From the IMG/VR virus record IMGVR_UViG_3300020061_000004, positions 1 to 64,000 of that record: a stretch of DNA of 64,000 bases. One strand, given 5' to 3'. The stretch comes from a virus. Within the stretch, counting starts at the first letter, position 1, and the number at the start of each line of letters is the position of its first letter. Positions 1-32,050 of the stretch are shown piece by piece. The notes beneath the pieces are model-generated. The model was given only the letters and a program-made list of their open reading frames with translations, was not told the origin of the DNA and did no database searches. Position numbers and translations under genes: made by a program.

Positions 1-685
1 CGTAGATATCCTCCTAACTATCGATAACCGAATCGATATAATAGGAAATCATGACGAATGGTTCAAACATTGGTTAGGAGGAGGAACTCATCCTATGCAT
101 TGGATGCAAGGAGGAGAAGGTACAGTGCGATCTTATCTGAGATATACACAAGATGATAGTCTTATTATTAAAAACAAAGGTAATGGAGGATTCATCACAG
201 CTCTAAATCCAGATGATGTTGATTCTACACATTGGAAGTTTTGGAGATATCAAAATCTCTATTATCATGATAAAGAAAGGGACTATTTCTTTGTACACGC
301 AGGCTGGAACAGAGAAAGTACTGTAGCTCGTGTAAGACAGATATGTCCCGAAGAATTTTATTGGGATAGAGAACTTTGGTATAAAGCTTTATGCTGTGGA
401 CCTGATGTTAAGCTAAAAACAGCTGATAACTTTGATACCATATTCATAGGACATACTGCAACCACTAATTGGAAGACAAAGAATATTCTTATAGATCAAG
501 GAATAAAAATCCCTAGAAAGAATGTAGACTTTCCACTCTATGCTGGAGGTATATGGAATTTGGATACTGGTGCTGGTTGGAGCGGTAAGCTTACAATCAT
601 GGATATTGATACAAAACAATATTGGCAATCTGATGAGGTAGAACTACTCTATCCTAATGAGGTTGTTAGAAGAACAATAACATAA
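1..685 (+). CDS. PPP/calcineurin-like phosphatase, 5'-truncated by window edge
   Basis: The reading frame is open from base 2 and has no start in the window except an internal ATG at 95, so the gene begins upstream. The metallophosphoesterase core is visible: a GNHDEW motif encoded near bases 47-64, a W..GG followed by T..SY stretch, VHAGW, IGHTAT, and a final NLDTGAGWSG block. This GNHD/HAG/GHT/DTGA order is that of bacterial PPP-family phosphatases (lambda phosphatase, Ap4A hydrolase type), which use two metal ions. The first metal motif (GDxHG) must lie outside the window. The TAA ends one base before the RNA ligase start, so the two genes are co-transcribed. The substrate could be a protein, Ap4A or an RNA 2',3' phosphate; the RNA-repair context favours RNA ends, but that is inference. 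Confidence 0.8.
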   Translation, partial: VDILLTIDNRIDIIGNHDEWFKHWLGGGTHPMHWMQGGEGTVRSYLRYTQDDSLIIKNKGNGGFITALNPDDVDSTHWKFWRYQNLYYHDKERDYFFVHAGWNRESTVARVRQICPEEFYWDRELWYKALCCGPDVKLKTADNFDTIFIGHTATTNWKTKNILIDQGIKIPRKNVDFPLYAGGIWNLDTGAGWSGKLTIMDIDTKQYWQSDEVELLYPNEVVRRTIT

Positions 686-686
686 T

Positions 687-2069
687 ATGAAACTAAAAGC
701 TCCAATGAACGAGAACTACGCTGCCACAGTAGTAGTAATCAAAAACATTATCACTCTTACTAATTGTGATAATGTAGTACACACAAGTATTTTTGGTAAT
801 TTAGTAGTTGTTGGTAAAGAAACAAAAATTGGAGATATAGGATTATATTTTCCGGTGGAAACAAGATTGTCTCATGAATTCCTAAATGAGAATAATCTTT
901 ACAGAGACAATACTAAAAACAAACAAATAGATGAGAAAGGCTATTTTGAAGATAATGGTAGAATTCGTTGCGTCAAGTTTCGTGGGAATCGATCCGAGGG
1001 CTTGTTCCTACCAACTCTATCTCTATTGCCTTTTGCTGAGGTTACTGATATTGCATCTTTGCCTGAAGGTAGTATGTTCGACAGTATTAACGGAATATCG
1101 ATATGCGAGAAATATGTTCCGAAGGTGGGTAATACACCCGGAACATCCGGCTCCTCCAAAGGCTCTAGAAAAGTGGCTAAGAAAATATCTAAAATCATAG
1201 CAGGACAGTTCAATTTTCATCCTGATACAAGCATGCTTGGAAAGAATATGCATAAGATATTTCCAAATACTCTTATCTCTATCACTGACAAGCTACACGG
1301 TACATCATTCGTAGTATCTAATATCCTATGTAAGAAGAAGTTGAAACTCAAGCATCGTATTCTTAAATTCCTTGGTGTTCCCTTGATTGATACACATTAT
1401 GAGACCATTTATAGTAGCCGGAAGGTTATTAAAAATGATGATCTTAATCATGATTATAATCACTTCTATAAGGAAGACGTATGGAAGAATGCTGCGGATG
1501 CACTGAAGGATATCCTTCTTCCCGGTATGACAGCTTATGGTGAGATTGTAGGCTTTACCCAATCAGGAACACCAATCCAACAAGGTTATGATTACGGATT
1601 CTCTAATAAAGTAAACACACTTGATAGGGAAACTACAAATGTCCAAAACTTTGGCATATACGTATACCGCCTTACCTTCACAACAGTAACAGGACAAGTC
1701 ATCGAATTCAGTGCTAAGCAAGTACAGAATTGGTGTAAGGAACATGGACTAAATCCTGTTCCTGAATTCTTCTATGGGAAAGCTAGTGATCTAATTAAAG
1801 TAGATAATCAGCTTATTTTCTTTCACGAAGAAGCTAAAGATCGATGGAGAGGACAAGTATTAGAGTATCTCTTGACAGCTTTTAACATGGAAAAGGATGA
1901 TGCAAACTGTGTCAACAAAGTACCAGCTGAAGGTATTGTAGTAAGAATTGAAGATGGTACAAACTATGACGCTTACAAACTGAAGAGTTTTCGCTTTCGT
2001 GAGCGTGAAACAAAAGAGCTTGATAAGGGTGTAGTTGATGTAGAAACGAGTGAATCTCACACAGAATAA
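687..2069 (+). CDS. RNA ligase, DRB0094 (Rnl5-like) family
   Basis: ATP-dependent RNA ligase that seals 3'-OH to 5'-phosphate RNA ends through a lysyl-AMP intermediate. The nucleotidyltransferase motif I is KLHG at residues 202-205, with K202 the predicted AMP-accepting lysine. Motif IIIa is in the TAYGEIVGF stretch, motif IV is EGIVVRIED and motif V is AYKLKSFRF near the C-terminus. About 130 residues before the catalytic domain look like an N-terminal OB-fold region, the order known for Deinococcus DraRnl (DRB0094 family) rather than for T4 Rnl1/Rnl2. Length (460 residues) is somewhat above the DraRnl type. It starts one base after the phosphatase stop. Neighbouring kinase and phosphoesterases would prepare its substrates. 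Family call is firm; the exact subfamily is less so. Confidence 0.88.
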   Translation: MKLKAPMNENYAATVVVIKNIITLTNCDNVVHTSIFGNLVVVGKETKIGDIGLYFPVETRLSHEFLNENNLYRDNTKNKQIDEKGYFEDNGRIRCVKFRGNRSEGLFLPTLSLLPFAEVTDIASLPEGSMFDSINGISICEKYVPKVGNTPGTSGSSKGSRKVAKKISKIIAGQFNFHPDTSMLGKNMHKIFPNTLISITDKLHGTSFVVSNILCKKKLKLKHRILKFLGVPLIDTHYETIYSSRKVIKNDDLNHDYNHFYKEDVWKNAADALKDILLPGMTAYGEIVGFTQSGTPIQQGYDYGFSNKVNTLDRETTNVQNFGIYVYRLTFTTVTGQVIEFSAKQVQNWCKEHGLNPVPEFFYGKASDLIKVDNQLIFFHEEAKDRWRGQVLEYLLTAFNMEKDDANCVNKVPAEGIVVRIEDGTNYDAYKLKSFRFRERETKELDKGVVDVETSESHTE

Positions 2070-2080
2070 GAACAGAAAGA

Positions 2081-2353
2081 ATGAAGACCTTAATTTTAAC
2101 GGTGAAAGAAGCAACGCAGGCGAAACTCATTTACAGACCGGGATTTGCAGTAATAAAAATTCCCGGAAGCCTTGAGATGCCTGATCAGATTATATTAAGA
2201 AATAAATTACTAAAAATTGTAGATGGAATCAGGGATAGTAACTTTTTCCTGAAGATGTATTACAAGATTGGAACGCCATATTTATTTCTTAATAAACGAA
2301 TTTCTTCTACAAAAAAGGAGACTTTTGTGGTGTATAAGTGGGATGATCTATAA
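2081..2353 (+). CDS. hypothetical protein, 90 aa
   Basis: Small protein between the RNA ligase and the kinase, with no motif I recognise. It has a mixed alpha/beta composition: a lysine-rich N-terminus, a central hydrophobic IKIPGSLEMP stretch and a basic C-terminal third. It begins 11 bases after the ligase stop, preceded by an A/G-rich stretch (aagaacagaaaga), and is followed by a terminator-like hairpin. Its place in the RNA-repair operon suggests a linked role, but nothing in the sequence shows one. Confidence 0.6.
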   Translation: MKTLILTVKEATQAKLIYRPGFAVIKIPGSLEMPDQIILRNKLLKIVDGIRDSNFFLKMYYKIGTPYLFLNKRISSTKKETFVVYKWDDL

Positions 2354-2357
2354 CGAA

Positions 2358-2390
2358 AAGGAAGGGGAGAGAGATACTCCCCTTCTTTAA
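2358..2390 (+). terminator. terminator-like hairpin just upstream of the kinase gene
   Basis: Perfect 9-bp inverted repeat GAAGGGGAG (2361-2369) / CTCCCCTTC (2377-2385) with a 7-nt loop, extendable by three pairs including one G-U, then TTT AAATTT. The U tract is short, so it may be a partial terminator, an attenuator or an mRNA-stabilising or processing hairpin. It ends about 12-15 nt before the kinase ATG at 2401. Confidence 0.5.
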
Positions 2391-2400
2391 ATTTCCAATT

Positions 2401-2904
2401 ATGGTAGATAAATTAGAAAAGATATTTGTAATTTGTATGGTAGGGATGCCATGTTCTGGAAAGAGTACATGGATACAAGATAATAAACCCAGAATTGCTA
2501 GTCAGTACAATACAAATGTTATTGTTATTAGTCGTGACACTATAAGAGAAACATTCTTTGGTAAAGATTACAAACAAAATAAAGAGGATGAAAAAGCTGT
2601 AACAATACGATATTGGAAAGAGCTTTCTCATGCTATTATGTTAGACAATGCTGTAATCATACTTGATAATTGTCACACAAAATCGTCTTATATAGATGAG
2701 TATATAAAGCTATTTCAGCCTTTGATTAATTCAGGCAAATTAGAGTTTTTTATAAAAATTCTTAAGGTGCCCTACTTACAAGCTTTAATGCGAAACTATA
2801 AACGACGAGTTGCCACTGGAAAGTGGATTCCACAAGATGTATTAAAAAGCTTTCATGAAGCATTTTTACGTCTCGATACTTCAAATTATAGAGAATTTGT
2901 ATGA
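2401..2904 (+). CDS. polynucleotide 5'-kinase, kinase domain only
   Basis: P-loop kinase predicted to phosphorylate 5'-OH ends of RNA or DNA. Walker A is GMPCSGKST at residues 15-23. Further along are ISRDTIR, a hydrophobic strand ending in LDN (IILDNCH), and a C-terminal RNYKRR..GKWIPQDVL block, which resembles the lid and C-terminal part of the T4 Pnkp kinase domain. At 167 residues it is only the kinase half of T4 Pnkp (about 300 residues): no HAD-type 3'-phosphatase DxDxT motif is present. The last bases overlap the start of the metallophosphoesterase gene by 4 nt, so translation is probably coupled. A different small-molecule kinase of the same P-loop group cannot be excluded, but the RNA ligase neighbour supports end healing. 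Confidence 0.78.
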   Translation: MVDKLEKIFVICMVGMPCSGKSTWIQDNKPRIASQYNTNVIVISRDTIRETFFGKDYKQNKEDEKAVTIRYWKELSHAIMLDNAVIILDNCHTKSSYIDEYIKLFQPLINSGKLEFFIKILKVPYLQALMRNYKRRVATGKWIPQDVLKSFHEAFLRLDTSNYREFV

Positions 2905-3515
2905 GTAATTTAACTAATTCCCTAAAGGGGAATATATTTCTTTGTAGTGACTTACATTTAGGACATTCTAATATCGCAGGTCCTTCAACAAGTAATTGGA
3001 AAGGTGGACATCGAAACTTCAAAAGTGTTGAAGATATGGATCGTACTATTATTGATAATATCAATGATATTGTTCCACAGGATGGTATTATTCTCTTTCA
3101 TGGTGATTTCTCATTTGGTGGACACACAAAGATTCCTGATTATCGCAGGAGGATCATCTGCCGGAATATTCACTTTATTAAAGGAAACCATGATCAGCAC
3201 ATCCATAAGTATAAAGATTTCTTCACTACAGTGCAGGATTATTGGGAAGGTACTTTAAATCACCATCCTTGGGTGGCATTACATTATGCAATGAGGATAT
3301 GGATGGGAAGTCATAAAGGCTTCTTTCATACCTATGGACATTCTCATTCATCATTAGAGCATAGTCCTCATGGAAAGAGTATGGATGTTGGTATTGATAA
3401 TGCTTTTAAAGTATTAGGTGAATATCGTCCATTCAGGCTGGATGAAGTAGTAGAAATTCTTAACAAAAGGAATATTTCATTTGTGGATAACCACGGAAAG
3501 CATACTAATGTATGA
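2901..3515 (+). CDS. calcineurin-like metallophosphoesterase
   Basis: All blocks of a binuclear metallophosphoesterase are visible: SDLHLGH (metal ligands D17, H19), HGD at 67-69, GNHD at 95-98, a histidine in the HHPW / ALHYA region, and a C-terminal YGHSH. The 204-residue length fits single-domain phage and bacterial phosphoesterases. The start overlaps the kinase stop by 4 nt and the end overlaps the next gene by 4 nt. In Clostridium thermocellum Pnkp, a kinase, a metallophosphoesterase phosphatase and a ligase form one protein; here the three activities are encoded as separate adjacent genes. Removal of 2',3'-cyclic or 3' phosphates from broken RNA is therefore a reasonable inference, not shown by the sequence. 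Confidence 0.82.
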   Translation: MSNLTNSLKGNIFLCSDLHLGHSNIAGPSTSNWKGGHRNFKSVEDMDRTIIDNINDIVPQDGIILFHGDFSFGGHTKIPDYRRRIICRNIHFIKGNHDQHIHKYKDFFTTVQDYWEGTLNHHPWVALHYAMRIWMGSHKGFFHTYGHSHSSLEHSPHGKSMDVGIDNAFKVLGEYRPFRLDEVVEILNKRNISFVDNHGKHTNV

Positions 3516-3904
3516 AAATATTTATAGTAGGACTTGAGGATACAAAACTAGTAAACAGAACTGATATTCTGGACTGGTTTTGTTCTCCTCAAGTAGGAAA
3601 AGGCATTATGAATGATACACATTGGATTATACAAACGAATGTACAATTATATAATTCGTTTGGTGATCCTGATGTAGGATATTTCATGAAAATGCTGGAA
3701 AGAGTATTGGCTAAAGGATATGAATCATTAATGATAATGAAATATGGAACAGAGTATAGAGGAAAAGATAGCCAAAATAGTGGCGAACAAAGGCAAGATC
3801 GAAAGGATGAAATACAACATCCTGATAATCCGCCGGTTGGAGAAGTATCTACAGGAGAACCCAGACTTGAGGTTCCAGCAGGTACTACAGAATCTGGAGA
3901 TTAA
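3512..3904 (+). CDS. hypothetical protein, 130 aa
   Basis: No recognised family. The N-terminal 85 residues look like a folded domain (IFIVGLEDTK, DWFCSPQVGKG, then WIIQTNVQLYNSF and an amphipathic helix). From about residue 90 the composition changes to a low-complexity, charged, Pro/Gly/Ser/Glu-rich tail. That tail is read in a different frame over the start of the next gene, sharing 161 nt. The start overlaps the phosphoesterase stop by 4 nt, so the gene belongs to the operon. The tail may be disordered or a by-product of the overlap. Confidence 0.55.
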   Translation: MKIFIVGLEDTKLVNRTDILDWFCSPQVGKGIMNDTHWIIQTNVQLYNSFGDPDVGYFMKMLERVLAKGYESLMIMKYGTEYRGKDSQNSGEQRQDRKDEIQHPDNPPVGEVSTGEPRLEVPAGTTESGD

Positions 3905-4061
3905 TGAAGTAGAGAAGAGAGAATTTACTCATGAAGGTTATGATATGATTGTTCTTACGGATAAATTTTATGAAGAATCTTCTATCACCTACAAAAAACT
4001 ATCAGAATGTTTACTTTCTATGAAGTGGGAGGGAAAGTCCGAGACGAGTTCCTTGGATTAA
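3744..4061 (+). CDS. conserved phage-type small protein, 105 aa
   Basis: Contains the pattern IRRLEKYLQENPDLRFQQVLQ followed by DKFYEES...Y..L, a pattern I associate with short uncharacterised phage proteins; function unknown. The ATG at 3744 follows an in-frame TGA at 3738. A second in-frame ATG at 3807, just before the conserved block, would shorten the overlap with the upstream gene. The 3' end overlaps the CCA-enzyme gene by 55 nt in another frame, so this locus carries two long out-of-phase overlaps. It is predicted to be a helical, cytosolic protein. Confidence 0.6.
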   Translation: MEQSIEEKIAKIVANKGKIERMKYNILIIRRLEKYLQENPDLRFQQVLQNLEINEVEKREFTHEGYDMIVLTDKFYEESSITYKKLSECLLSMKWEGKSETSSLD

Positions 4062-4729
4062 AATCTAAGGACCTCGATTATGTAGCAGTTCCTCATCCGG
4101 ACTATTACTCTCCAAGTATAAAAATGGAGACATTATTTCAGCTTCTTGAAAACCAATTGGTTAATCAAGGATTTCAAATATTTCTTCGTACTCCAAAAAT
4201 GTTCACAATTAGAGCAAAGAATCCTAGTACAAAGGAAACTTCCGACTTTGTGATAGCTAGGAAAGAAGTTGGTTATATACCAAATACTCGTGAGCCTATA
4301 TGTGTACCGGGTACTCTTCTTGATGACCTCACTCGTAGAGATTTTACTATGAATGCTATTGCAAAAGCACAGGATGGAACTATAATTGATCCATTTGATG
4401 GGCAGAAAGCAATAAGGGATAGATTTCTTCAAACTCCTCTACCAACAATACAAACGTTTAGTGATGACCCTCTAAGAATACTTAGAGCTATTCGCTTTTC
4501 AGTTACTAAAGGATTTGTAATGAGTGAAGAAATTATATCTGCAATACATTCTTTTGATTACGATCATCGCTTCGGTGTAGTATCAGAAGAACGTATTCGT
4601 GAAGAACTTTATAAGTGTCTACATTCTAGTACACTACGAACATTAGAATATCTACAAGATTTCTACAATCTTCGTTGGTATATCTTTATTCATACAAAAC
4701 TTTGGCTTAAACCAACAAACGAATCATAA
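4007..4729 (+). CDS. tRNA nucleotidyltransferase (CCA-adding / poly(A) polymerase family), short form
   Basis: Class II nucleotidyltransferase that would rebuild or extend the 3' CCA end of tRNA. Motif A is EVGGKVRDEFLG...KDLDYVAV with catalytic-type D22 and D24. Motif B is RRDFTMNAIA at 110-119. DPFDGQKAIRDRFLQT and DDPLRILRAIRFS (153-164) match motifs C and D, where the more usual ED is DD. Cellular CCA enzymes have about 400 or more residues; this 240-residue protein keeps the head and neck but little of the body and tail that measure the tRNA. It is followed without gap by the next gene (TAATG junction at 4727-4731). Family call is strong; whether it adds CCA, part of it, or A residues cannot be told from the sequence. 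Confidence 0.85.
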   Translation: MFTFYEVGGKVRDEFLGLKSKDLDYVAVPHPDYYSPSIKMETLFQLLENQLVNQGFQIFLRTPKMFTIRAKNPSTKETSDFVIARKEVGYIPNTREPICVPGTLLDDLTRRDFTMNAIAKAQDGTIIDPFDGQKAIRDRFLQTPLPTIQTFSDDPLRILRAIRFSVTKGFVMSEEIISAIHSFDYDHRFGVVSEERIREELYKCLHSSTLRTLEYLQDFYNLRWYIFIHTKLWLKPTNES

Positions 4730-5733
4730 TGGCAAGATATTCAGAAGGTGATATTGTAAGAATAACAGACTTTGAAGTAAGAGATGCAGGGCCTATCTTT
4801 GAAGCAGTAATCACCGAAGTATTAACAGACTCTACTGAAAATGAAAGTACCTATGAAATAGTTGAAGTAGGAGATGATACTTCATTTTGGATAGTAAGAG
4901 ATAATAATATTCATGCACTACTTGGAAATACTTTTATACTTTATGGAAATCCTGAACAAGGTAGAAGAGTTGCCGATATGGCAGATGTTAGAGATAAAAT
5001 AAGTGCTGTAGATGCTCAGTTAGCAGCACAAACAGCACACCTGTGGCGTCAAACAACAAGACGGGGACGTGATTTTGTTAATCCGGTAGAAGCAGTAGTA
5101 GAAGCAATACTACCCGGATTTAATACACTTCCTTTGGCACCTCCTGCACCTACTACTCCTGAACTACCTATTCCTCGACAAGGTGAAACAATAGAACAAA
5201 ATGCTGATGGAGAAATAATTGTTACTACTCAACGTGGAGAACGTTTTGTATTTAGTGGTATTCCTCATTATAATGCATGGAATCAGATTCGTAGACCAGC
5301 AGTACCAGTTCAGAATAGAGAAGAAGGAAGAGAGTTACAGAGAGCTGAAAGAACCAATATTACTACAACTGATTACAGACCAAAAACAGGAAATACAAGA
5401 CCTTTAAGAACATTTGTAATTTCTATGATAGGAGAAGACCTTATTCTTACTCCTACATTACCATTTGGAAGTTCTGTCTATCAGTTTTTTGATCAAAATG
5501 GTACACAATGGGATAATGAGCATAATAGCCTAATAGTATCAAGAGCTGAAACAACTCTAGTAGATCATTGTGGACAACGTTGGGCTCGTATGGAAGATGT
5601 TGAATTTGCTAGAAGAGGAAGTTTTCAGGACGTAAAAAGAACTCCCAAAAAGAAAAAACATCTTAGGCGTAGAACACCAATGCCTGAAATAAAAGACGCT
5701 AAATATTATGGTAGTAGAGAATTCATCGGTTAA
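4729..5733 (+). CDS. hypothetical protein with proline-rich linker and basic C-terminus, 334 aa
   Basis: Not recognised. Residues 1-85 look like a small beta-rich domain (GDIVRITDFEV...IFEAVITEVL, the kind of strand pattern seen in SH3-like barrels). Residues 90-125 form a helix containing RQTTRRGRDF. A proline-rich linker follows (PLAPPAPTTPELPIPRQ). A second beta-rich region runs over about 205-290, and the C-terminus is strongly basic (TPKKKKHLRRRT). The basic tail suggests nucleic-acid binding. Start overlaps the nucleotidyltransferase stop in a TAATG junction and the end overlaps the RlaP-like gene by 26 nt, so it sits between two nucleotidyltransferases in the repair operon. Confidence 0.65.
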   Translation: MARYSEGDIVRITDFEVRDAGPIFEAVITEVLTDSTENESTYEIVEVGDDTSFWIVRDNNIHALLGNTFILYGNPEQGRRVADMADVRDKISAVDAQLAAQTAHLWRQTTRRGRDFVNPVEAVVEAILPGFNTLPLAPPAPTTPELPIPRQGETIEQNADGEIIVTTQRGERFVFSGIPHYNAWNQIRRPAVPVQNREEGRELQRAERTNITTTDYRPKTGNTRPLRTFVISMIGEDLILTPTLPFGSSVYQFFDQNGTQWDNEHNSLIVSRAETTLVDHCGQRWARMEDVEFARRGSFQDVKRTPKKKKHLRRRTPMPEIKDAKYYGSREFIG

Positions 5734-6865
5734 TCCAACAATTGGAAAGGATTCAAAAATACCAGATTTAGGAAATGGAAATACTATCATCTATGGTTGT
5801 ATCGTAGGCTCTCATGCCTATGGTACAAACGTAGAGGGTAGTGACATTGACAAAAAATGGATATATATACAAAGTTCTATAGATTTCTTCATTAATGGTT
5901 ATAGACCACAGATTGAAATTTCTAAGGATGAAGTATGTTATGAACTTTCACGATTCCTTGAACTGGCATTAAAAGCCAATCCTACAATATTAGAACTATT
6001 CTTTAGTCCTGATGATTGTATTTTATATAAGCATCCTGTGTTTAATAAGTTATTACACATGAGGAAGCAGTTTCTTACTAAGCAATGCCGTTATTCCTTT
6101 GGTGGATATGCTTTAGCTCAGATTGAAAAGGCGCGTGGACTTGATAAAAAAATGAACTGGGAGAAGGATAAGATAGACCGCAAATCTATTCTCGACTTTT
6201 GCTATTGGATTGAAGAAGCCATAGACCCCACACTCAATGACTATTATCAGTCTGTACCTATTAAAGAGATATTCACTGAGAGGCAACTATCCAAAATGGG
6301 GCTTTCTAATATCCCAAATACTAGAGGGCTATATAATCTATTTTGTGACATTCGCTTCGAATTGGGTGGCATTGCTGATGAGAAATCTAATGATGTTCGT
6401 ACAACTTCAATACCAAAAGGTACAAGTAGTTGCGGAATGGTATTCTTTAATAAAGATGCCTATTCTATACACTGTAAAGAGTATAACGAATATCAAACCT
6501 GGCTAAGTAAGCGTAATACTCAGAGATATGTTGATGTTGAGAATCATGGGCAGATGATAGATGGTAAGAACCTTCTACACTGTGTGAGACTCATCGAAAC
6601 AGCCTTAGATATTGCTAAATTAGGAAATCTTATTGTAAGAAGACCTAATACAGAATATTTAAAGTCTATACGTCTCGGAAAACTTGATCTTGAGGTTATT
6701 CTTGAACATAGCAAGAAGTATATCAATGAGATGGACTCTGCTTTTAGTTCATCAAAATTAGCAGATAAGTTTGATGCTCCAAACATGCTTAAATATCTTA
6801 ACTATGATATTCGTAAGCAAGTTGAAAATGAAAGAAAAGAACCAATAAAACCAAATTTCAGATAA
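5708..6865 (+). CDS. RlaP-type predicted nucleotidyltransferase (RNA-ligase-associated)
   Basis: A DNA-polymerase-beta-superfamily nucleotidyltransferase signature is present near the N-terminus: GSHAYGT at 34-40 followed by EGSDIDKKWIYIQ, giving the G-S...DxD active site (D46, D48). This GSHAYG..SDIDxxG-like pattern and the length (385 residues) fit the RlaP family, named for its association with RNA ligases in RNA-repair operons. The position six genes after an RNA ligase matches that association. The rest is helical, with a conserved-looking YGGYALAQ-type segment (here FGGYALAQIEKARG) and HCVRLIETALDIA. The true substrate of RlaP proteins is not settled. Ends in a TAATG junction with the next gene. 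Confidence 0.78.
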   Translation: MVVENSSVNPTIGKDSKIPDLGNGNTIIYGCIVGSHAYGTNVEGSDIDKKWIYIQSSIDFFINGYRPQIEISKDEVCYELSRFLELALKANPTILELFFSPDDCILYKHPVFNKLLHMRKQFLTKQCRYSFGGYALAQIEKARGLDKKMNWEKDKIDRKSILDFCYWIEEAIDPTLNDYYQSVPIKEIFTERQLSKMGLSNIPNTRGLYNLFCDIRFELGGIADEKSNDVRTTSIPKGTSSCGMVFFNKDAYSIHCKEYNEYQTWLSKRNTQRYVDVENHGQMIDGKNLLHCVRLIETALDIAKLGNLIVRRPNTEYLKSIRLGKLDLEVILEHSKKYINEMDSAFSSSKLADKFDAPNMLKYLNYDIRKQVENERKEPIKPNFR

Positions 6866-12257: not shown

Positions 12258-12275
12258 TTTTAGTTTTCCATGTTT

Positions 12276-12304
12276 AGACCCGGAGCCGTGCCGGGTCTTT
12301 TTAA
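12276..12304 (+). terminator. intrinsic terminator or attenuator
   Basis: Perfect 8-bp GC-rich stem AGACCCGG (12276-12283) / CCGGGTCT (12291-12298), 7-nt loop, followed by TTTTAATCTTTTT. It lies 19 nt after the stop at 12257 and 13 nt before the next ATG at 12312, leaving no room for a promoter between. Confidence 0.75.
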
Positions 12305-12311
12305 TCTTTTT

Positions 12312-12650
12312 ATGGATAAAGAATCAGTTAAGGTATGTTTGTGTCTTGATGATGATGGTAAGTTATCATTAGAAGAAAGATTTGAAGTTGATCAAACTAT
12401 TAAGAATATGGAAGAAGGTGATGGATCACTCCCCTATACAGTTATAGGATCGGTGACAATACCTGCCGAAATTCCTTATTTCTTCATCATCTTCAAGAAT
12501 GGATCGAGTATTGTTTATGACTTAGTTCAGGCTGCTGATGAAGCTTCAGCCAAGACAAAAGTATTAACTAAGAAACGAAATGCAGGAAAAAGGATCGATT
12601 TTAAAAGAGTCTCAAATATTGCGGGACTTATCAGTCAATATTCGAGCTAG
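12312..12650 (+). CDS. hypothetical protein, 112 aa
   Basis: Start set at the ATG at 12312 (MDKESVKVCLCLDDDGK) because the longer ORF from 12270 would be read through the terminator stem. The sequence is mixed alpha/beta, with strand VKVCLCLDD, a helix over the ERFEVDQTIKNMEEGD region, and later strands IPYFFIIFKNGSSIVYDLV. No family recognised. It overlaps the next ORF by 71 nt. Confidence 0.5.
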   Translation: MDKESVKVCLCLDDDGKLSLEERFEVDQTIKNMEEGDGSLPYTVIGSVTIPAEIPYFFIIFKNGSSIVYDLVQAADEASAKTKVLTKKRNAGKRIDFKRVSNIAGLISQYSS

Positions 12651-12867
12651 TGATATCTACTGGTATAAAGATAGGCCGTATAAAATCTTATACGAAACAG
12701 TTATTAAGGAAGGAGATATATGGATCCCGGTAGTTATATATGTCTGTCTTTATGATAATTCTGATGGTAATATATGGGTAAGAAAAACAGATGAATTTGA
12801 TAAGAAATTCTCTAGTATTATGCCTGAGAATCCTTATTATGGACCAAAACCAAGTAGTTTAAAGTGA
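12580..12867 (+). CDS. DUF1653-like small protein, 95 aa
   Basis: The C-terminal two thirds read YWYKDRPYKILYETVIKEGD, then PVVIYVCLYDNSDGNIWVRK with a DEFDKKF end. This follows the DUF1653 pattern: aromatic-rich start, Y.VL, VVY..LY, a WVR segment, then F. The function of DUF1653 is unknown. The ATG at 12580 lies within the previous gene; a later start near the conserved part is possible but no closer ATG is seen before it. Ends in an ATG-overlapping junction with thyX (12864). Confidence 0.55.
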   Translation: MQEKGSILKESQILRDLSVNIRASDIYWYKDRPYKILYETVIKEGDIWIPVVIYVCLYDNSDGNIWVRKTDEFDKKFSSIMPENPYYGPKPSSLK

Positions 12868-13580
12868 AAGTATCTTTAAAAAGTATCACTCCAAACGCTG
12901 AACTTAATATAGTTGAAATAGCTAGAGTATCTTCTCCTCGACAGGATAAGACAGAAGCTCCTGAAGGCTTATTAAACTATCTTATTAAGAATAAGCATTG
13001 GAGTCCATTTCAGCATTCCTATCTCACCTTTGAGATAACCACCAGCAAGGCTATTGCTATCCAATATCTTAGACATCTAAGTTTCACCTTTCAGGAGTTC
13101 TCTCAACGCTATACTAAGGTAGAGGAAATAGAAGCTATTGAGTTTCGCTTACAAGCTGAAAAGAATAGACAGAGTAGTACAGATATAGTAGGAAGAGTAT
13201 CCCATATGATAGATGGATCAACAGATAGTTTATTTGAGAAGAATTCAAAGCAATTCTTTACTACATTCGATACTCCTGCACAGATTAATCCTGATATGGG
13301 ACTATGGCTTCTAAAGGTAGCTAAACATTTAGAAGAATCAATAGAGATATATAATGAAGCTCTTGAGCTTGGAATAGCTAAAGAGTGTGCAAGGATGATA
13401 CTTCCTATGGCTACTCGTACTACACTCTACATGACAGGCTCAGTGAGAAGCTGGATACACTTGTTAGATATTCGTGATGATGGACATGCACAGAAAGAAG
13501 CACAACTCATTGCTAAGGAGATTAAGAAAATCTTTGTAGAAGAATTACCAATTATTTCAAAAGCTTTAAAATATATATGA
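12864..13580 (+). CDS. thyX: flavin-dependent thymidylate synthase
   Basis: Makes dTMP from dUMP using FAD and methylene-tetrahydrofolate. The ThyX signature block is at residues 70-83: [14 protein letters not shown], aligned with the family motif RHRxxSxNExSxRY. The C-terminal part has [20 protein letters not shown] followed by [10 protein letters not shown] and [10 protein letters not shown], the usual substrate-binding helices. Length (238) is normal. The third motif residue is Leu rather than Arg, and Q replaces N. It overlaps recA by 4 nt (ATGA), so the two are co-translated. Confidence 0.9.
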
Positions 13581-14551
13581 GCGAAAAACTAGAAGACACA
13601 TTAGCCAAGATTGATAAGGATTTAGGCAAAGGAACCGTAATGAAACTCGGTGAAAAACAATCGGAGCCTGTAGAGGCAATTAGCACTGGATCAATAGGCT
13701 TAGATGAAGCTATTGGTATAGGAGGCGTTCCGAGAGGTAGAATCATTGAAATCTATGGTCCAGAATCTTCTGGAAAGACAACAATCGCAACTCATATTAT
13801 TGCAGAAGCTCAAAAACTAGGAGGTTTGTGTGCTATTATTGATGCAGAACATGCTTTCGATGCGCCTTATGCTGCTAGCATTGGTGTTGATGTGGACAAT
13901 CTTTATATATGCCAACCTGAAAGTGGAGAACAAGGATTGGAGGTGGCGGATCGACTCATCAGCAGTGGGAATTTTGCTGTTGTCCTTGTCGATAGCGTTG
14001 CTGCTCTGGTTCCTAAAGCAGAGTTAGATGGAGAGATGGGAGAGAATAAAATGGGACTTCACGCAAGATTAATGTCACAGGCTTGTAGGAAGCTCGCAGG
14101 AACTACCCATGAATCTAATACCTGCCTAATATTTATTAATCAGTTACGACTAAAGATTGGTGTAATGTTTGGTAATCCTGAGACAACAACTGGAGGAGAA
14201 GCTTTAAAGTTCTATGCTTCAGTACGGCTTGATGTTCGTAGAAGCACCACTGTTGCAAACTCGGTTATGGACGGTGATATAAAATTAGGAAATCAGACTA
14301 CTGTAAAAGTAATCAAAAACAAGGTAGGAAGTCCATTTAGGAACGCAGAATTTGATATTATATATGGAGAAGGAATCGATAAACTTGGAGAGCTTATTGA
14401 CATTGCTGTGGAAAAGAAAGTGGTTCAGAAGTCTGGTAGTTGGTTTAGTTATCAAGACTCAAAGATTGGGCAAGGTCGTGACGGAGTTAAACAGTTCTTT
14501 AGGGATAACCCCGAAGTCAAAGAACAAATAGAGACTTTAGTACGTAAATAA
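13577..14551 (+). CDS. recA: RecA recombinase
   Basis: Bacterial-type RecA for homologous recombination and phage DNA repair. Walker A is GPESSGKTT near residue 57; a Walker B-type strand ([16 protein letters not shown]) and the L1/L2 region [19 protein letters not shown] followed by [21 protein letters not shown] are clear. The C-terminal domain ends at residue 324, so the acidic C-terminal tail of cellular RecA is missing or short, as is common in phage copies. Starts in an ATGA overlap with thyX and is followed by a strong terminator. Confidence 0.92.
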
Positions 14552-14557
14552 TACAAA

Positions 14558-14609
14558 AATTCCCTGAAGAAGAGCTACAAGAGCAAACCTTCGGGGAATT
14601 TTTTTTTAG
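14558..14609. terminator. bidirectional terminator between recA and the fibre operon
   Basis: Stem AATTCCCTGAAG (14558-14569) / CTTCGGGGAATT (14589-14600), 12 bp with one G-U pair and a 19-nt loop. It is followed by a T9-type run on the plus strand and by TTTTTG on the minus strand. It lies 6 nt after recA and 27 nt after the leftward fibre gene that ends at 14628. Confidence 0.85.
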
Positions 14610-14627
14610 TCGTTAATGAGCGTAAAA

Positions 14628-15788
14628 TTAGAAATAAGTAACCACTATTACAATACCGTCTCCACCATTTCCTCCTTTACCAGAAGTAAATCCGTTTCTA
14701 GCACCTCCACCACCTCCTGCTCCACCTCCCGGAAATCCTCCATCACCACCATTTCCAGCATTAGCTATAATACTACATGCTCCCCCGCCTCCTCCAGAAC
14801 CACCAAATGAAGCTTGATTAAGTCCTCCTGTAACACCATTTCCACCACTCACTCCACTTCCAGCAGTTCCAGTACTACCACCTACTCTAGCAGGTTGCCC
14901 TGATACAGCAGCAGCAGGATTTCCACAGTTTGCACCAGCAGCAGATAAGAATGTTGTATTTGCAGTATTAATACTTCCACCAGCGCCTCCTCCAGCAGCT
15001 CCTGCTATTTGAGCAGCAGCAGGTGCAGTGGCATTACCCGCTGTAACAACAGTTCCATTAATACCACTTGTCCATACACTAGGATTAGGAAATGGTATAC
15101 CAGCAGCACCTTGTATACTTGTTGTTGCAGTTGTAGGTGCTTGGCCACCTTTTATAAAGAGATGAGTTCCAAATGAACTATCACCACCAGATGTTCCTAC
15201 TATACCTACTGTACTATTAGTAGTGATAGCTGCTCCTCCTATTCCACCTGCTCCACATATTACAGTTTCTGTATTCCCTACTAACCCAGCATGTACTCCT
15301 ATAAATCCACGAGCACCCCCGCTTCCCCCATTTCCACCGGGAGCACCTACACCGGGAGCTTGTACACCTCCACTACTACCCGCACCACCTCCAGAATATA
15401 ATTCTATTTCAATATATTTAGCTCCTACTGGTTTGGTGTATGTATGAGTGCCGGGAGTAAATATTTGTACATCTGTTGCAGGAGGTATAGATGATATATC
15501 AGCCTTTGTAGCAAATTCTGCTTGCAAATCAGCTTGAGTATTAATATCTCCTATAATACTTCCCCATGTAGGAGGAATAGGAGCACCACCTGATATTACC
15601 CATATACTACCATTCCACATATATAATATTTGTTGTGTAATATCATATACAGGAAGTCCTGTATTTAGAATACTCAGTGTAGCTCCTAATGCTATTCTAT
15701 CTGGTGTTGAGAGAGGGTTAGTTCTCCAATCTTTTAGAATATTTAATTTCTGGCCATCTAAGTCCAGATATATTTTCTTTGAAGTCAT
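14628..15788 (-). CDS. glycine-rich tail fibre / adhesin tip protein
   Basis: Start set at the ATG at 15788 (MTSKKIYLD), which forms a TAATG junction with the gene before it. The N-terminal ~115 residues include LPVYDITQQILYMWNGSIWV, a phage fibre attachment-like motif, and a helix QADLQAEFATKAD. Then FTPGTHTYTKPVGAKYIEIE leads into a domain of about 250 residues extremely rich in Gly with GGGGA/GGNGG runs, ending DGIVIVVTYF. This is the layout of glycine-rich phage adhesins (polyglycine-helix type, as in T-even gp38 receptor tips). It is the last gene of the lysis/fibre operon. Role in host binding is inferred. Confidence 0.75.
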   Translation of the reverse strand: MTSKKIYLDLDGQKLNILKDWRTNPLSTPDRIALGATLSILNTGLPVYDITQQILYMWNGSIWVISGGAPIPPTWGSIIGDINTQADLQAEFATKADISSIPPATDVQIFTPGTHTYTKPVGAKYIEIELYSGGGAGSSGGVQAPGVGAPGGNGGSGGARGFIGVHAGLVGNTETVICGAGGIGGAAITTNSTVGIVGTSGGDSSFGTHLFIKGGQAPTTATTSIQGAAGIPFPNPSVWTSGINGTVVTAGNATAPAAAQIAGAAGGGAGGSINTANTTFLSAAGANCGNPAAAVSGQPARVGGSTGTAGSGVSGGNGVTGGLNQASFGGSGGGGGACSIIANAGNGGDGGFPGGGAGGGGGARNGFTSGKGGNGGDGIVIVVTYF

Positions 15789-16045
15789 TAATATAAGTAT
15801 AACGTACAACCATCTAATGGAACATTAGCTGATATTTGTACAGTGTTATCTGAAAATAATTTAAAACCGACAACTACTTCTTCTCCTGTCATATCTACCA
15901 CTAGATAGCCTATAACATAGACAAGTTTATGAATAGAAGGGGGTATAAAATAAGACAAGCCCATAAGGCTTGTTTTATATATTTGTAATCTTCTATCAAT
16001 GGAGTTGAGTCTTCCTAATATAGCACAATCATCACAGCAAGACAT
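15788..16045 (-). CDS. small cysteine-rich-start protein, 85 aa
   Basis: Not recognised. Begins MSCCDDCAIL, then a helix (LNSIDRRLQIYKTSL) and a beta-rich C-terminal half (LVYVIGYLVVDMTGEEVVVGFKLF...). It sits between two fibre genes and joins the downstream one through a TAATG overlap, so a small tail or fibre accessory role is likely. The CC..C start recalls the cysteine-rich starts of tail proteins near the right end of the window. Confidence 0.6.
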   Translation of the reverse strand: MSCCDDCAILGRLNSIDRRLQIYKTSLMGLSYFIPPSIHKLVYVIGYLVVDMTGEEVVVGFKLFSDNTVQISANVPLDGCTLYLY

Positions 16046-16054
16046 ATATAAAGA

Positions 16055-17233
16055 TTAAGCTGATGTTATAGTTTCCCAAACCGATCCAGTAAATACACAC
16101 AATTTATTTAAATTCACATCATATACCAATAAACCAGGACCAGGAGTAATAATTGCATTTTTCTGTACTGTAGACATTCTAGGAGGTAAGAAACCAAGAG
16201 TTGTACTATTAACTTCTAATTGAGCAGATACATCAGGGGCTATAGAACCATCTGATACTAAGACTTGATTATTACTAACTACAAGTCCCACTCCTGTACT
16301 ATACGTTATCGTAGGACTACTTACCAACCTTCCATTAGTACCTGTAAAAGGAACCCTTCCTAAAGGAAGAGCCACATCATTCATGGTAAACTCTTTTCTA
16401 ATACCTGCTGTAGTTATTGTTCCAAAGTATTTATCTGTTAGAAATTCTACAGCTCCTACTTCAGGAGTTGTTAATAATGGGCCAGAAGTAAGTTTAATTG
16501 GTGCAGTACCAGCAGCGGCTGTTCCTGCCTTTATATTAAGTATAGCTGATGGATTATTAATACCTAATCCGAAGTGTCCATTTTGGTTAAAACGAGCATA
16601 TTCATTACCAGCAAGAGGTTGACTAAATGCACTATTAAATGTTATAGGACCTGTATCTGCTGCTAAGTTTAATCCACCTATTCCACCTACATTCCCAACT
16701 ACTACACCTCTTGTGACAAAGGAGTTAGCTGAGGAACTTAGATAAAAAAATCCAGTATCGCCCAGATCATTAGTCATCTGAACTCCAGCAGCCGCTCCTG
16801 TTCCAGAGACAGCATTACTTATTCCTATACCGGTTAGAGAGGAGCTAGCATCATTAGATACTGTTATAGGCAGTAGATCATTTGGATTTAATACAATACT
16901 TGTTCCTACAGAATCACCATTAACTCCTGAAATAGTTATTGAGAAACCACCTGTACTAGCATCAATAGTAGTATCTTGAATTAAATCTCCTCCCAGTCCA
17001 ATATCACTACCAATAGTACTCAAACCATTAATTGGAGTAATACTTCCTGCTGATGCTGTAGCTATAAGAGGATCACTTTCAGTACCACTACCAGTAAAAG
17101 TTACTGTAGCACTATCCTCAGTGACTATTTCTGTCAAGAAATCTAAGCAGCATTCTGTATTCTTCTGTTTCTCTTGTATAAGAGCTAGAATATTAGATGT
17201 ATACCCTTTTTTATTTTTGTTAGTGTTTGCCAT
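16055..17233 (-). CDS. tail fibre protein, paralogue of the neighbouring fibre
   Basis: The N-terminal ~60 residues (NKNKKGYTSNILALIQEKQK, CCLDFLTEIVTEDSATVTFTG) are nearly the same as in the next upstream gene, marking a shared anchor module. The central part is low-complexity, Ser/Thr/Gly-rich beta repeats typical of trimeric fibre shafts, with GNEYARFNQNGHFGLGINNPSAILNI, a motif common in phage fibres. Near the C-terminus, LLTTPEVGAVEFLTDKYF and PGLLVYDVNLNKLCVFTGSVW are adhesion/trimerisation motifs found in many phage tail proteins. No enzymatic domain. Function as a receptor-binding or side fibre is inferred from composition and context. Confidence 0.75.
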   Translation of the reverse strand: MANTNKNKKGYTSNILALIQEKQKNTECCLDFLTEIVTEDSATVTFTGSGTESDPLIATASAGSITPINGLSTIGSDIGLGGDLIQDTTIDASTGGFSITISGVNGDSVGTSIVLNPNDLLPITVSNDASSSLTGIGISNAVSGTGAAAGVQMTNDLGDTGFFYLSSSANSFVTRGVVVGNVGGIGGLNLAADTGPITFNSAFSQPLAGNEYARFNQNGHFGLGINNPSAILNIKAGTAAAGTAPIKLTSGPLLTTPEVGAVEFLTDKYFGTITTAGIRKEFTMNDVALPLGRVPFTGTNGRLVSSPTITYSTGVGLVVSNNQVLVSDGSIAPDVSAQLEVNSTTLGFLPPRMSTVQKNAIITPGPGLLVYDVNLNKLCVFTGSVWETITSA

Positions 17234-17237
17234 TATA

Positions 17238-18455
17238 TTATACTAAAGTTACCTGTTTTCTTACGGCACCTACTGTAAAAAATAAATTTATACCGTCATA
17301 TTCTAATGTTCCATCTTCAGGAGTAGTTAGAAGTGTTCCTGAATCAATCTTAACTGAACCTGTTCCAGGATTACCGGTAGAGCTTCCACCAACATGAAGA
17401 CGAGCAGTAGGAACATCATTGAATACTTTTGCTATAGATACATTTCCACTTGTAGTGGCAAATAATGCATCACCAGTAGTATTTTGCCATGCAATATTTC
17501 TACCTAACATAGCAGTAATACTAGGACTATAAAATATACCCCTTACATTACCTGTAGCTGTTCCTGTCTGATTAATATTACTTTGAATAAATAATGCAAC
17601 AGCATCACTAGAACCTCCTGTAGGAGAAATTGAATCCTGAATACCAATTGCATTCTGTTGAACCGATCCTATTGCTTGTTGATAGCTACTAAGAATAGCT
17701 AAGCAAGTAGATTGTCCAGATGGTCCTGAATCTCCACCAGATGCTACGGATATAGGAATTGTCTGAAAATAAGTAACTGAAGTTCCTAGAAATAAAGAAC
17801 CACCCGCACTTATTCTAAAACGTCCAATATTATTGGCACGAAGGTCCATTAATAATGCACCAGCACCAGACGCAGTATTAGTTATAGTAGCATTTATCAG
17901 AGTAGGATTGCCTGTAGTATTCCAAGTACCATTTATAAGTAAATGGGGAGTGGCATCAGTACCAGAGTTATTCTTACTAATTGAGGTAGTATTACCAAAA
18001 GTACCACCACCACTTATATTAAAGTTTGCTGCTGCTTGCTGAGTAGTCTGATTATTTATATACAAACCGGATAAACTTGGAATATCTGTAGCTACAAGGG
18101 CTCTGAAAGTTGGTATAGCTGTTCCTGTTGCAGGACCAGATAATACTAAATGAGCAGCTTGTGTATTTAAATCCAGATTTATATCTCCAGCAGTTGTTAT
18201 AGGAGAATTGGTAATATTAAAAAGTGGATTACTGGTGAGCCCTACACTTGTTACAGTTCCAGTAGCACCAGTAGATGTTGCAATTATAGGATTAGATTGT
18301 GTTCCATCTCCTGTAAAAGTAACAGTATCACTATCTTCTGTAAATACTTGTGTAAGAAAATCTAAACAACAACCTGTTGCCTGCTGTTTCTCCTGAATTA
18401 AGGATAAAATATTAGCTGTATAGCCTTTCTTATTTGTATTTGTTGTCCTAGCCAT
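17238..18455 (-). CDS. tail fibre protein, paralogue of the neighbouring fibre
   Basis: Shares the N-terminal anchor (TNKKGYTANILSLIQEKQQ, CCLDFLTQVFTEDSDTVTFTG) with the gene at 16055-17233, and the LLTTPEDGTLEYDGINLFF element near its C-terminus. It also carries NQTTQQAAANFNISG, a module repeated in the 829-residue fibre at 22405-24894. The body is Ser/Thr/Gly-rich beta repeat. The HNH endonuclease gene directly precedes it in transcription (1-nt gap). Probably another component of the same fibre set or an alternative receptor-binding version. Confidence 0.75.
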   Translation of the reverse strand: MARTTNTNKKGYTANILSLIQEKQQATGCCLDFLTQVFTEDSDTVTFTGDGTQSNPIIATSTGATGTVTSVGLTSNPLFNITNSPITTAGDINLDLNTQAAHLVLSGPATGTAIPTFRALVATDIPSLSGLYINNQTTQQAAANFNISGGGTFGNTTSISKNNSGTDATPHLLINGTWNTTGNPTLINATITNTASGAGALLMDLRANNIGRFRISAGGSLFLGTSVTYFQTIPISVASGGDSGPSGQSTCLAILSSYQQAIGSVQQNAIGIQDSISPTGGSSDAVALFIQSNINQTGTATGNVRGIFYSPSITAMLGRNIAWQNTTGDALFATTSGNVSIAKVFNDVPTARLHVGGSSTGNPGTGSVKIDSGTLLTTPEDGTLEYDGINLFFTVGAVRKQVTLV

Positions 18456-18456
18456 T

Positions 18457-18936
18457 TTATAATTTATTAGATTTTATTCTATTATCTTTAGCCCATAAAG
18501 GTTGGAGATTTGTATAGTGAAAGCAAATTTCTTGATTTTTTGTATCTGTTAAATCAAAACTATCACAAGGAATAATATGATCTAAATGCCACTTACCATA
18601 GTTTTCAAAGGACATCCCATCTTGAAATTTAGATGATAAGTGTTCCTTGAGTTCTTCTAAATTACAACCTAATAAGGTCATAGTTTGTCTTGTTTTCGAT
18701 GTGATAGATTTACTAAGAAGAAAAGATAGCCTTTTTCTAAGATTACAAGCTATTCTAAAACCAATATTCTCTTGTCTCTTTCTCCTCCTATATTCATTCA
18801 CTCTTTCCTTATTATTCCTATGCCACTCTTTAGTATTCTCCCTCCATTTCTCTAAGGATTTACTTCTTTCTTCTTCTGATTTTATATTGAAAGGTTTATA
18901 ACCCTTAACAAATTGTCCCTTACTATTTCTTTCCAT
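18457..18936 (-). CDS. HNH endonuclease (free-standing homing-type)
   Basis: The C-terminal half has WHLDHIIPCDSF (HLDH at 117-120), followed by CFHYTNLQPLWAKDN and KSNKL, the H-D-H, N and K positions of the HNH nuclease motif. The N-terminal ~60 residues are basic and helical (KEWHRNNKERVNEYRRRKRQE), as in phage homing nucleases that bind DNA. It lies between the endolysin and a fibre gene with overlapping or 1-nt junctions, and is not needed for virion structure. The coding sequence around it appears intact, so it is a free-standing insertion rather than an intron-borne one. Confidence 0.85.
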   Translation of the reverse strand: MERNSKGQFVKGYKPFNIKSEEERSKSLEKWRENTKEWHRNNKERVNEYRRRKRQENIGFRIACNLRKRLSFLLSKSITSKTRQTMTLLGCNLEELKEHLSSKFQDGMSFENYGKWHLDHIIPCDSFDLTDTKNQEICFHYTNLQPLWAKDNRIKSNKL

Positions 18937-31998: not shown

Positions 31999-32050
31999 CA
32001 AATATACAATTATAATTACAATTAATTAAACGTGTAACCATAATTGGTTA
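31999..32050 (-). promoter_or_regulatory. late-type promoter upstream of the 29884-31995 gene
   Basis: Read leftward: TAACCA-N7-TTACACGTTT (32050-32028), 21 nt, then TATATTTG (32006-31999). The upstream block is identical in layout to those at 58844-58822 and 46240-46218. The block overlaps the stop codon of the RNA polymerase gene. The -7 box ends only 4 nt before the ATG, so the transcript would be leaderless or nearly so. Confidence 0.65.

Follow-up and report, generated by a model that had tools for sequence, protein, structure and literature searches.

Gene content of the island

The window, a stretch of 64,000 nucleotides, starts at base 1 of a 123,280 bp virus record, the genome (~123 kb) of a crAss-like-related phage, and the first gene of the locus described here, encoding a PPP-type phosphatase, is therefore cut at that point. 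Profile searches identified six RNA-end enzyme families within 6.9 kb, all on the + strand. The original prediction had named six enzymes within 7 kb in one direction, namely a PPP-type phosphatase, a DRB0094-type RNA ligase with KLHG at residues 202-205, a P-loop 5′-kinase, a second metallophosphoesterase, and CCA-adding-type and RlaP-type nucleotidyltransferases, and all six families were confirmed by the matches given below. That list is corrected by four extra ORFs interspersed with the enzymes. Gaps between consecutive listed ORFs are, in order, +1, +11, +47, -4, -4, +102, -1, -26, and -1 nt; the predicted overlap of most genes, by 1-26 nt, is corrected to 5 of 9 listed junctions. A dGTP-diphosphohydrolase-like/HAD protein is encoded directly upstream of the island and a ribonucleotide reductase, whose family was assigned by homology only, directly downstream.

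The PPP-type metallophosphatase is represented in the window by its C-terminal 227 aa (2-685, +; phrog_246, 5.5e-21). Its N-terminal 44 aa (MRTLVVGDIHG...GDVADGWPY) lie outside the window, at contig 123149-123280 near the opposite terminus of the record, and this piece also matched phrog_246 (4.2e-11). The metal motifs GDxHG, GDxxDG, and GNHD are all present, the first two at the contig end as GDIHG and GDVADG and the third in the window. The intact orthologue in the related phage L115 has 278 aa (PF00149, 2e-13), and its best solved match is lambda phosphatase (1g5b, 2.3e-10). By sequence, PPP could equally well be an ApaH or a protein phosphatase, and its role as an RNA 2′,3′-phosphatase is putative. 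The second phosphatase, a calcineurin-like metallophosphoesterase of 204 aa (2901-3515, +; phrog_547, 3e-39), carries metal-ligand motifs (DxH, GD, GNHD, H, GHxH) that are invariant in relatives, and its family is widespread in phages (984 of 50,697 records). Given how common the metallophosphoesterase family is in phages, and given the match of PPP to lambda phosphatase and its likeness to ApaH, neither is RNA-only by sequence, and the two phosphatases are the weakest members of the proposed repair set.

The ATP-dependent RNA ligase (687-2069, +) is an Rnl5-like protein of 460 aa with an N-terminal OB fold and a nucleotidyltransferase domain. It matched phrog_968 (9e-62), PF09414 (3e-8, over the cut-off), and the OB domain PF21189 (2.4e-6), and its profile matched the OB region of Naegleria gruberi RNA ligase (5cot/6vt5, 7e-6), with no full-length match obtained. 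K202 of the KLHG motif is invariant in relatives, and motif I (KxHG), motif IV (EGIVVRI), and motif V (YKLKS) are conserved in five sequences. On this profile evidence the ligase is nearest to the Naegleria enzyme (Rnl5), its nearest solved relative, and not of the loop-joining Rnl1 type. Rnl5 enzymes seal nicks in duplexes with an RNA 3′-OH strand. Phage repair that joins loop breaks uses Rnl1 (PMC2610378), and we therefore give appreciable weight, short of an even chance, to a reading in which the substrates of the ligase are nicked duplexes (rRNA or tRNA stems, or RNA-DNA hybrids) and not anticodon-loop breaks, so that cuts made by other nucleases would be repaired. This reading is tempered by the fact that substrate range is not readable from sequence, and the locus indicates no RNA substrate.

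The P-loop kinase (2401-2904, +; 167 aa) matched phrog_505 (2e-22) and AAA_33 (7e-10). It is a polynucleotide kinase-like protein consisting of the kinase domain only; the alignment covers positions 4-142 of the 295 in phrog_505, and no HAD 3′-phosphatase domain was found in it. The P-loop (G15..GK21), D46, R49, and the lid arginine R131 are invariant in relatives, although P-loop, DxxR, and lid motifs may also occur in PSTK-like kinases and are not discriminating. Its best phage BLAST matches are for the most part annotated as polynucleotide kinases. Among solved structures the best match was PSTK (L-seryl-tRNA(Sec) kinase, 5e-6), followed by T4 polynucleotide kinase (8e-4), an order which counts against a repair operon.

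The CCA-adding-type tRNA nucleotidyltransferase (4007-4729, +; PF01743, 1e-15; phrog_24229, 2e-52) is a class II enzyme of 240 aa in a short phage form, comprising the head and the start of the neck. The head motifs GGxxRD, DxD, RRD, and DDxxR are invariant in five sequences. NCBIfam CCA models matched at 6e-28 to 7e-17, all under the cut-off (98 bits against 290 for the best), PcnB matched at 2e-19, and a full body/tail domain was not found. Phage enzymes of this type are commonly this short (phrog_24229 has 245 positions). The phage encodes 22 tRNA genes (contig 76.3-81.6 kb), 18 of which lack the full CCA and encode only its first C; the enzyme thus has a housekeeping explanation, and may simply mature the phage tRNAs. 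The single encoded C was rejected as a hallmark of CCA-enzyme phages, as phage Lbo-JY46 shows it in 16 of 18 tRNA genes without the enzyme and two Cytophagales genomes have the same ends (29 of 39 distinct tRNAs). Nor is it a program artefact, as ARAGORN detection was unchanged when the base was mutated. The Lbo-JY46 tRNA genes also show that a host enzyme can serve phage tRNAs.

The last enzyme is an RlaP-family nucleotidyltransferase of 385 aa (5708-6865, +; PF10127, 1e-18, 68 bits against a cut-off of 23; phrog_388, 2e-45), which has a GS...DxD motif at 34-48 and 58% identity to the copy in the related phage L007. The nearest bacterial relatives of this protein, on Cytophagales chromosomes, lie in an Rnl1-RlaP-PNKP cassette. 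No biochemical study of RlaP was found in the searchable literature.

Three of the extra ORFs encode protein families of 90, 130, and 334 aa which are found only in this island, and there in all five related phages examined. The conserved 90-aa protein (S90; 2081-2353, +) always adjoins the kinase in this phage group; it was present in 5 of 5 relatives examined, and absent elsewhere in the examined loci and from 50,697 phage records. Its model is a confident alpha/beta fold (pLDDT 92) with no significant match in a PDB fold search and with resemblance to one viral model, A0A292GII6 (E 1e-4). Small ORFs behind the ligases of XacN1 and B23 were considered as homologues, and profile search revealed no likeness. 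In the 130-aa protein (S130; 3512-3904, +), alignment and profile search showed an N-terminal ~77 aa kept in five phages and a variable C-terminal tail; its model (pLDDT 84) likewise had no significant PDB match in a fold search. The 334-aa protein (U334; 4729-5733, +) has conserved N and C ends, a variable middle, and a basic C-terminal tail, and occurs in the same place in 5 of 5 relatives and nowhere else in the examined loci. The fourth ORF (3744-4061, +) is an overprinted 105-aa frame which overlaps the 3512-3904 tail and the start of the CCA gene, with 46-48% identity to L108 and L115.

Gene order in related phages and clustering elsewhere

The complete block PPP-LIG-S90-PNK-MPE-S130-CCA-U334-RlaP is kept in L108. 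Single-gene differences were seen in L115, which has no CCA enzyme in the island, and in L109, which has no PPP gene, and a shorter form of the block is present in L007 and G003. Island proteins of the related phages share 32-80% identity with those of L115 and L108, and in comparisons with these two phages the 90-aa protein and all six enzymes had pN/pS values of 0.22-0.46. Since the same order recurs in related phages with such pN/pS values, the island order is more than chance.

G003 keeps S90, PNK, S130, CCA, U334, and RlaP, while no PF09414 or phrog_968 ligase, metallophosphoesterase, or PPP was detected in it; a search for Rnl1 in G003 used profile PF09511, which gave no match in the control genomes themselves. 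The same ORF lies directly 5′ of the ligase in L109 and of S90 in G003. Gene loss in G003 is likely but not certain, because its contig ends break near that spot. That none of these three enzymes was detected in G003 counts against a repair operon. It also enters into a further possibility, which we regard as very improbable, that during host takeover the tRNAs of the host are altered or inactivated by RlaP and the CCA-like protein, in the manner of nucleotidyltransferase toxins, and not repaired. Both proteins belong to the pol-beta superfamily and are nucleotidyltransferases of the template-independent type, the activity of RlaP is a predicted one, and G003 retains the two without a detected ligase. 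Nevertheless, bacterial RlaP relatives lie beside Rnl1 and PNKP with no evident antitoxin partner, the motifs of the CCA-like protein match class II CCA enzymes, and PADLOC models gave one weak, low-scoring match only.

Pairs of these genes were also examined in 48 CCA-bearing viral contigs, where the number of pairs within 5 kb was compared with a uniform null which takes no account of gene-module structure, some of the contigs being related. By this measure CCA-RlaP (8 of 22, 1.6 expected, p 0.0002), PNK-MPE (6 of 13, 0.8 expected, none of 5000), PNK-RlaP (6 of 17, p 0.001), and CCA-PNK (7 of 29, p 0.002) were clustered, and ligase-RlaP (1 of 11) was not significant. Additionally, the CCA, RlaP, and annotated metallophosphoesterase genes of the isolated phage KLEP7 adjoin each other; relatedness of that metallophosphoesterase to the one in the island was not detectable by profile search. 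Phage family profiles also join the modules: phrog_246 fuses kinase (~1-150) and PPP (~170-400), and the RNA ligase profile phrog_8238 consists of kinase (4-142), PPP (173-261), and ligase (415-729). Thus, the genes are not scattered without co-occurrence in related phages, as the block is conserved and pairs cluster.

These data bear on a looser module for translation support and nucleotide metabolism, in which the CCA enzyme would mature the 22 tRNAs that the phage encodes, repair proper would fall to a core of ligase, kinase, and RlaP, and the phosphatases would do unrelated work in dinucleotide or cyclic-nucleotide hydrolysis or protein dephosphorylation. We consider this somewhat unlikely. 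It would accommodate the tRNA ends, the likeness of PPP to lambda phosphatase and ApaH, the 984 phage records with metallophosphoesterase relatives, the L115 island without CCA, and the flanking nucleotide-metabolism genes. In Lbo-JY46, moreover, the PPP and metallophosphoesterase orthologues lie far from each other and from the ligase, which also counts against a repair operon. Lbo-JY46 is not devoid of ligase and kinase: its RNA ligase is another one (phrog_548, 42029-43009), and it encodes a full kinase-HAD protein (14264-15187). Order and tight spacing kept across relatives, the fused kinase and PPP modules, and the CCA-RlaP and PNK-MPE clusters of other phages argue against the looser module, as do the Lbo-JY46 tRNAs, for which a host enzyme can serve.

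Proposed repair pathway

Family matches, invariant motifs, the conserved block, fused PHROG profiles, clustering, and the Cytophagales cassette together make it probable that this crAss-like-related phage carries an operon for RNA-end repair, whose products would act jointly. Of the joint repair kit originally predicted, the RNA-end operon, its conserved block, pairwise clustering, and the coupling of RlaP with ligase and PNKP are supported. Its weak points are that by sequence the phosphatases are not RNA-only, that G003 has no detectable ligase, that the CCA enzyme may serve the phage tRNAs, and that the ligase is nearest to Rnl5 and not to Rnl1. From this we infer the catalytic steps, the substrates, the joint action, and a role in counter-defence, including repair after anticodon nucleases. 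A host ribonuclease, an anticodon nuclease or another, would cut RNA to leave 5′-OH and 2′,3′-cyclic or 3′-phosphate ends. The stand-alone kinase would phosphorylate the 5′ end, and the cyclic phosphate would be opened and the 3′ phosphate stripped by the PPP phosphatase, possibly aided by the metallophosphoesterase, in place of the HAD domain of T4 Pnkp. RlaP would restore nucleotides missing at the break, the Rnl5-like ligase would join 3′-OH to 5′-phosphate, and the CCA enzyme would finish tRNAs of the phage, as well as trimmed ones, at their 3′ termini. For the small island proteins we assume an accessory or RNA-binding role. It has been predicted that RlaP restores nucleotides ahead of ligation, and that CCA enzymes and kinases are part of phage RNA repair (PMC7824862).

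The probable purpose of this kit is to undo host tRNA-cutting defences. RloC excises the wobble nucleotide, a lesion that plain ligation cannot reverse (PMC2610378), and repair of tRNAs with lost nucleotides is a proposed counter-defence for which no tests were found in the searchable literature. A bolder form of the repair operon, which we think unlikely, is a new type of multi-protein machine, with a split kinase/PPP/Rnl5 core and two nucleotidyltransferases scaffolded by the 90-, 130-, and 334-aa proteins, which would rebuild nucleotide-loss breaks. If true, RloC-type wobble-excised tRNAs would be rebuilt and repair-resistant lesions overcome. The three proteins may represent new components of RNA repair, and the natural variants of the 7-kb block, each without a different part, are a convenient set for testing enzymes against lesions.

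Comparison with known repair systems

A survey of jumbo phages (PMC7824862) has already described kits for RNA repair in which RlaP occurs together with an RNA ligase, a polynucleotide kinase, and a CCA enzyme. They share with the island the same enzyme families and the logic of end healing, sealing, and nucleotide restoration. Rnl1, Rnl2, and RtcB ligases with HAD phosphatases are typical there, whereas here the ligase is Rnl5-like, the kinase has no HAD domain, the genome is ~123 kb, and the genes are contiguous with three conserved uncharacterised proteins. T4 Pnkp and Rnl1 similarly provide a 5′ kinase and an ATP-dependent RNA ligase in a phage. In the island, by comparison, the kinase protein has a single domain, the phosphatases are separate proteins of the PPP and calcineurin-like types and not HAD, the ligase is of another family, and there are additional nucleotidyltransferases. 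Pnkp-Hen1 of the Clostridium thermocellum type combines kinase, PPP-superfamily phosphatase, and ligase modules, which in the island are separate genes with a ligase of another family; among the ORFs of 2-6865 no methyltransferase, Hen1 included, passed a Pfam cut-off. The Cytophagales loci (L127, L128, L130, and L136) encode an RlaP of the same subfamily (46-49% identity) with ligase genes, kinase genes, or both next to it, and the complete three-gene cassette was confirmed by profile in L130 and L136. They differ from the island in their Rnl1 ligase, in a full kinase-HAD PNKP, and in the absence of adjoining CCA, PPP, and metallophosphoesterase genes. Thus, phage kits of this kind are known, and the enzyme mix and compactness of this island are unusual.

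Enzymes and layout of the island

Six enzyme families, which the original prediction had placed together as a compact RNA repair island, were each recovered by profile search in window positions 1-6,865: a PPP-type phosphatase, an RNA ligase, a P-loop kinase, a calcineurin-like metallophosphoesterase, a CCA-type nucleotidyltransferase, and RlaP. Interspersed with these enzymes are three ORFs encoding 90, 130, and 334 aa, together with an overprinted ORF of 105 aa, and the genes are tightly packed, with successive gaps of +1, +11, +47, -4, -4, +102, -1, -26, and -1. The window covers the first 64 kb of a virus record of 123,280 bp. The PPP gene is broken by the contig start; the record's final bases are its initial 44 codons, which encode the motifs GDIHG and GDVADG. 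Since the gene is split over both ends (window base 1 and contig position 123280), the record was probably opened there from a circular or circularly permuted genome. In G003, the record of a related phage, the cut falls within the adjacent HAD-like gene, so the two records were linearised or broken at almost the same position. Directly upstream of the PPP gene (contig 122109-122768; L004, a further stretch of the record, 18109-18768) lies a dGTP-diphosphohydrolase-N plus HAD-like protein. It is kept upstream of the island in relatives, its homologue in Leptolyngbya phage Lbo-JY46 precedes a different RNA ligase by about 400 bp, and it is possibly an additional island member.

The ligase has an OB domain at its N-terminus and covalent nucleotidyltransferase motifs, and its profile match to the Naegleria gruberi RNA ligase bears out, at the family level, the DRB0094-type label assigned to it earlier. 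Rnl5 ligases, which this one resembles, are known chiefly for duplex nicks, a point that tempers the anticodon-nuclease reading given below. The kinase consists of a kinase domain alone and lacks the HAD portion found in T4 Pnkp; its catalytic residues are conserved. Most of its top phage matches carry a polynucleotide kinase annotation, although among solved structures it matches a seryl-tRNA kinase best. The CCA protein is short, at 240 aa, and shows class II motifs; RlaP belongs clearly to PF10127.

The intact PPP orthologue of L115, a related phage locus, is closest to lambda phosphatase and ApaH. The phrog_246 profile fuses kinase and PPP modules (kinase genes match up to about position 150, phosphatase genes 166-395), and phrog_8238, an RNA ligase family profile, consists of kinase, PPP, and ligase thirds. 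Because these phage profiles join the PPP module to a kinase module, they support, without proving, a putative RNA 3′-end role for this phosphatase. The metallophosphoesterase has intact metal motifs and belongs to a family spread across 984 phage records. Calcineurin-type Gp66 of phage D29 is a reported 2′,3′-cyclic nucleotide phosphodiesterase, and another mycobacteriophage enzyme of its superfamily damages host DNA (PMC12287305), therefore function is not readable from the fold. Both island phosphatases may have other duties.

Versions of the island in related phages

Related phages were located via RlaP and the CCA enzyme. The island is complete in L108, a 44.7 kb contig, in an order identical to that of the window (HAD-like, PPP, ligase, 90 aa, kinase, metallophosphoesterase, 130 aa, CCA, 334 aa, RlaP, ribonucleotide reductase), and protein identity ranges from 32 to 76%. 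L115 differs from this arrangement by the missing CCA gene, none being found in its contig, and L109 by the missing PPP gene. L007, the corresponding locus of G003, retains the 90-aa, kinase, 130-aa, CCA, 334-aa, and RlaP genes; the metallophosphoesterase is absent from this island, and no PF09414 or phrog_968 ligase was found across the 125 kb of G003. The small ORF directly preceding the ligase in L109 is a 58% homologue of the ORF directly preceding the 90-aa gene in G003, which suggests that G003 lost its ligase, with a certainty reduced by the contig ends that fall near this spot.

In comparisons with L115 and L108, the six enzymes and the 90-aa protein had pN/pS values of 0.22-0.46; values were higher for the 334-aa protein and for the overprinted 130-aa protein. 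The 90-, 130-, and 334-aa families were present in the five phages of this group and were not found in any other locus compared. The 105-aa ORF (window 3744-4061) overlaps, in a different frame, the tail of the 130-aa ORF (3512-3904) and the CCA start. Its conservation in L108 and L115 is 46-48%, L109 and L007 lack the tail of the 130-aa protein, and the two ORFs look like an overprinted gene pair.

Gene neighbourhoods and tRNA genes

Clustering was assessed in 48 viral contigs, chosen solely for encoding a CCA relative, by comparing pairs within 5 kb with uniform placement. CCA-RlaP, PNK-MPE (kinase and metallophosphoesterase), PNK-RlaP, and CCA-PNK pairs were more frequent than predicted; weaker clustering was seen for ligase-PNK (4/19, p 0.025), CCA-ligase (5/22, p 0.015), and CCA-MPE (4/17, p 0.028), and ligase-RlaP was not significant. 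These results are indications, because the null model was a simple one, the test covered fifteen pairs, and some of the contigs are relatives of one another. None of the other contigs in this sample had all six enzymes close together. One viral contig (G021) holds metallophosphoesterase, ligase, and kinase inside 3 kb, and another (G023) PPP, kinase, RlaP, and CCA inside 9 kb. The annotated isolate Pseudaeromonas phage KLEP7 encodes consecutive peptidyl-tRNA hydrolase, CCA, RlaP, and metallophosphoesterase, the last with no detectable relatedness to that of the island. On Cytophagales chromosomes, the closest RlaP relatives are flanked by an Rnl1 ligase (PF09511) on one side and a kinase-HAD PNKP on the other. 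RlaP adjoins one or both of these in Arcicella and other Cytophagales (L136, L130, L127, L128), and full Rnl1-RlaP-PNKP cassettes were profile-confirmed at L136 8847-12177 and L130 8852-11913.

The window phage terminase is nearest to that of Lbo-JY46 (45%), then to those of crAss-like phages. A single 3868-aa ORF inside the virion-gene block (window 32048-43654, minus strand) resembles giant ORFs of crAss-like phages. Lbo-JY46 has much of its genome in common with the window phage, and its repair genes lie far apart: the kinase-HAD gene is at 14 kb, an RNA ligase of another kind at 42 kb, the metallophosphoesterase at 49 kb, and the PPP gene at 58 kb, with the CCA enzyme absent. The window phage carries 22 tRNA genes (contig 76271-81588; L002, within the same record, 12271-17588), 18 of which encode just the first C (C74) of the CCA end, so an ordinary job is available for the CCA enzyme. 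Such ends likewise occur in G003, the viral contig G052, two Cytophagales genomes, and Lbo-JY46; since the last has no CCA enzyme, its host is able to complete CCA.

Proposed role and known systems

T4 Pnkp and Rnl1 are the classical case of phage RNA-end repair. We favour, with fair confidence, the reading of the island as an RNA-end repair operon, in which the kinase and phosphatases would heal RNA ends, RlaP and the CCA enzyme would restore nucleotides, and the ligase would seal the healed ends. Anticodon nucleases are a plausible opponent, in agreement with published proposals (PMC7824862; PMC2610378), although no feature of the sequence points to a particular damaged RNA; one such nuclease, RloC, excises the wobble nucleotide (PMC2610378). 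The enzyme set and its rationale are already on record for jumbo phages (PMC7824862), and the bacterial systems Pnkp-Hen1 and Pnkp1-Rnl-Hen1 illustrate that such enzymes act as complexes (PMC4411300). Compared with these known kits, what is new here is that the genes form a compact block in a crAss-like-related lineage of middle size, that a stand-alone kinase is combined with a PPP phosphatase and an Rnl5-like ligase, that the island occurs in natural single-gene variants, and that three conserved companion proteins accompany it.
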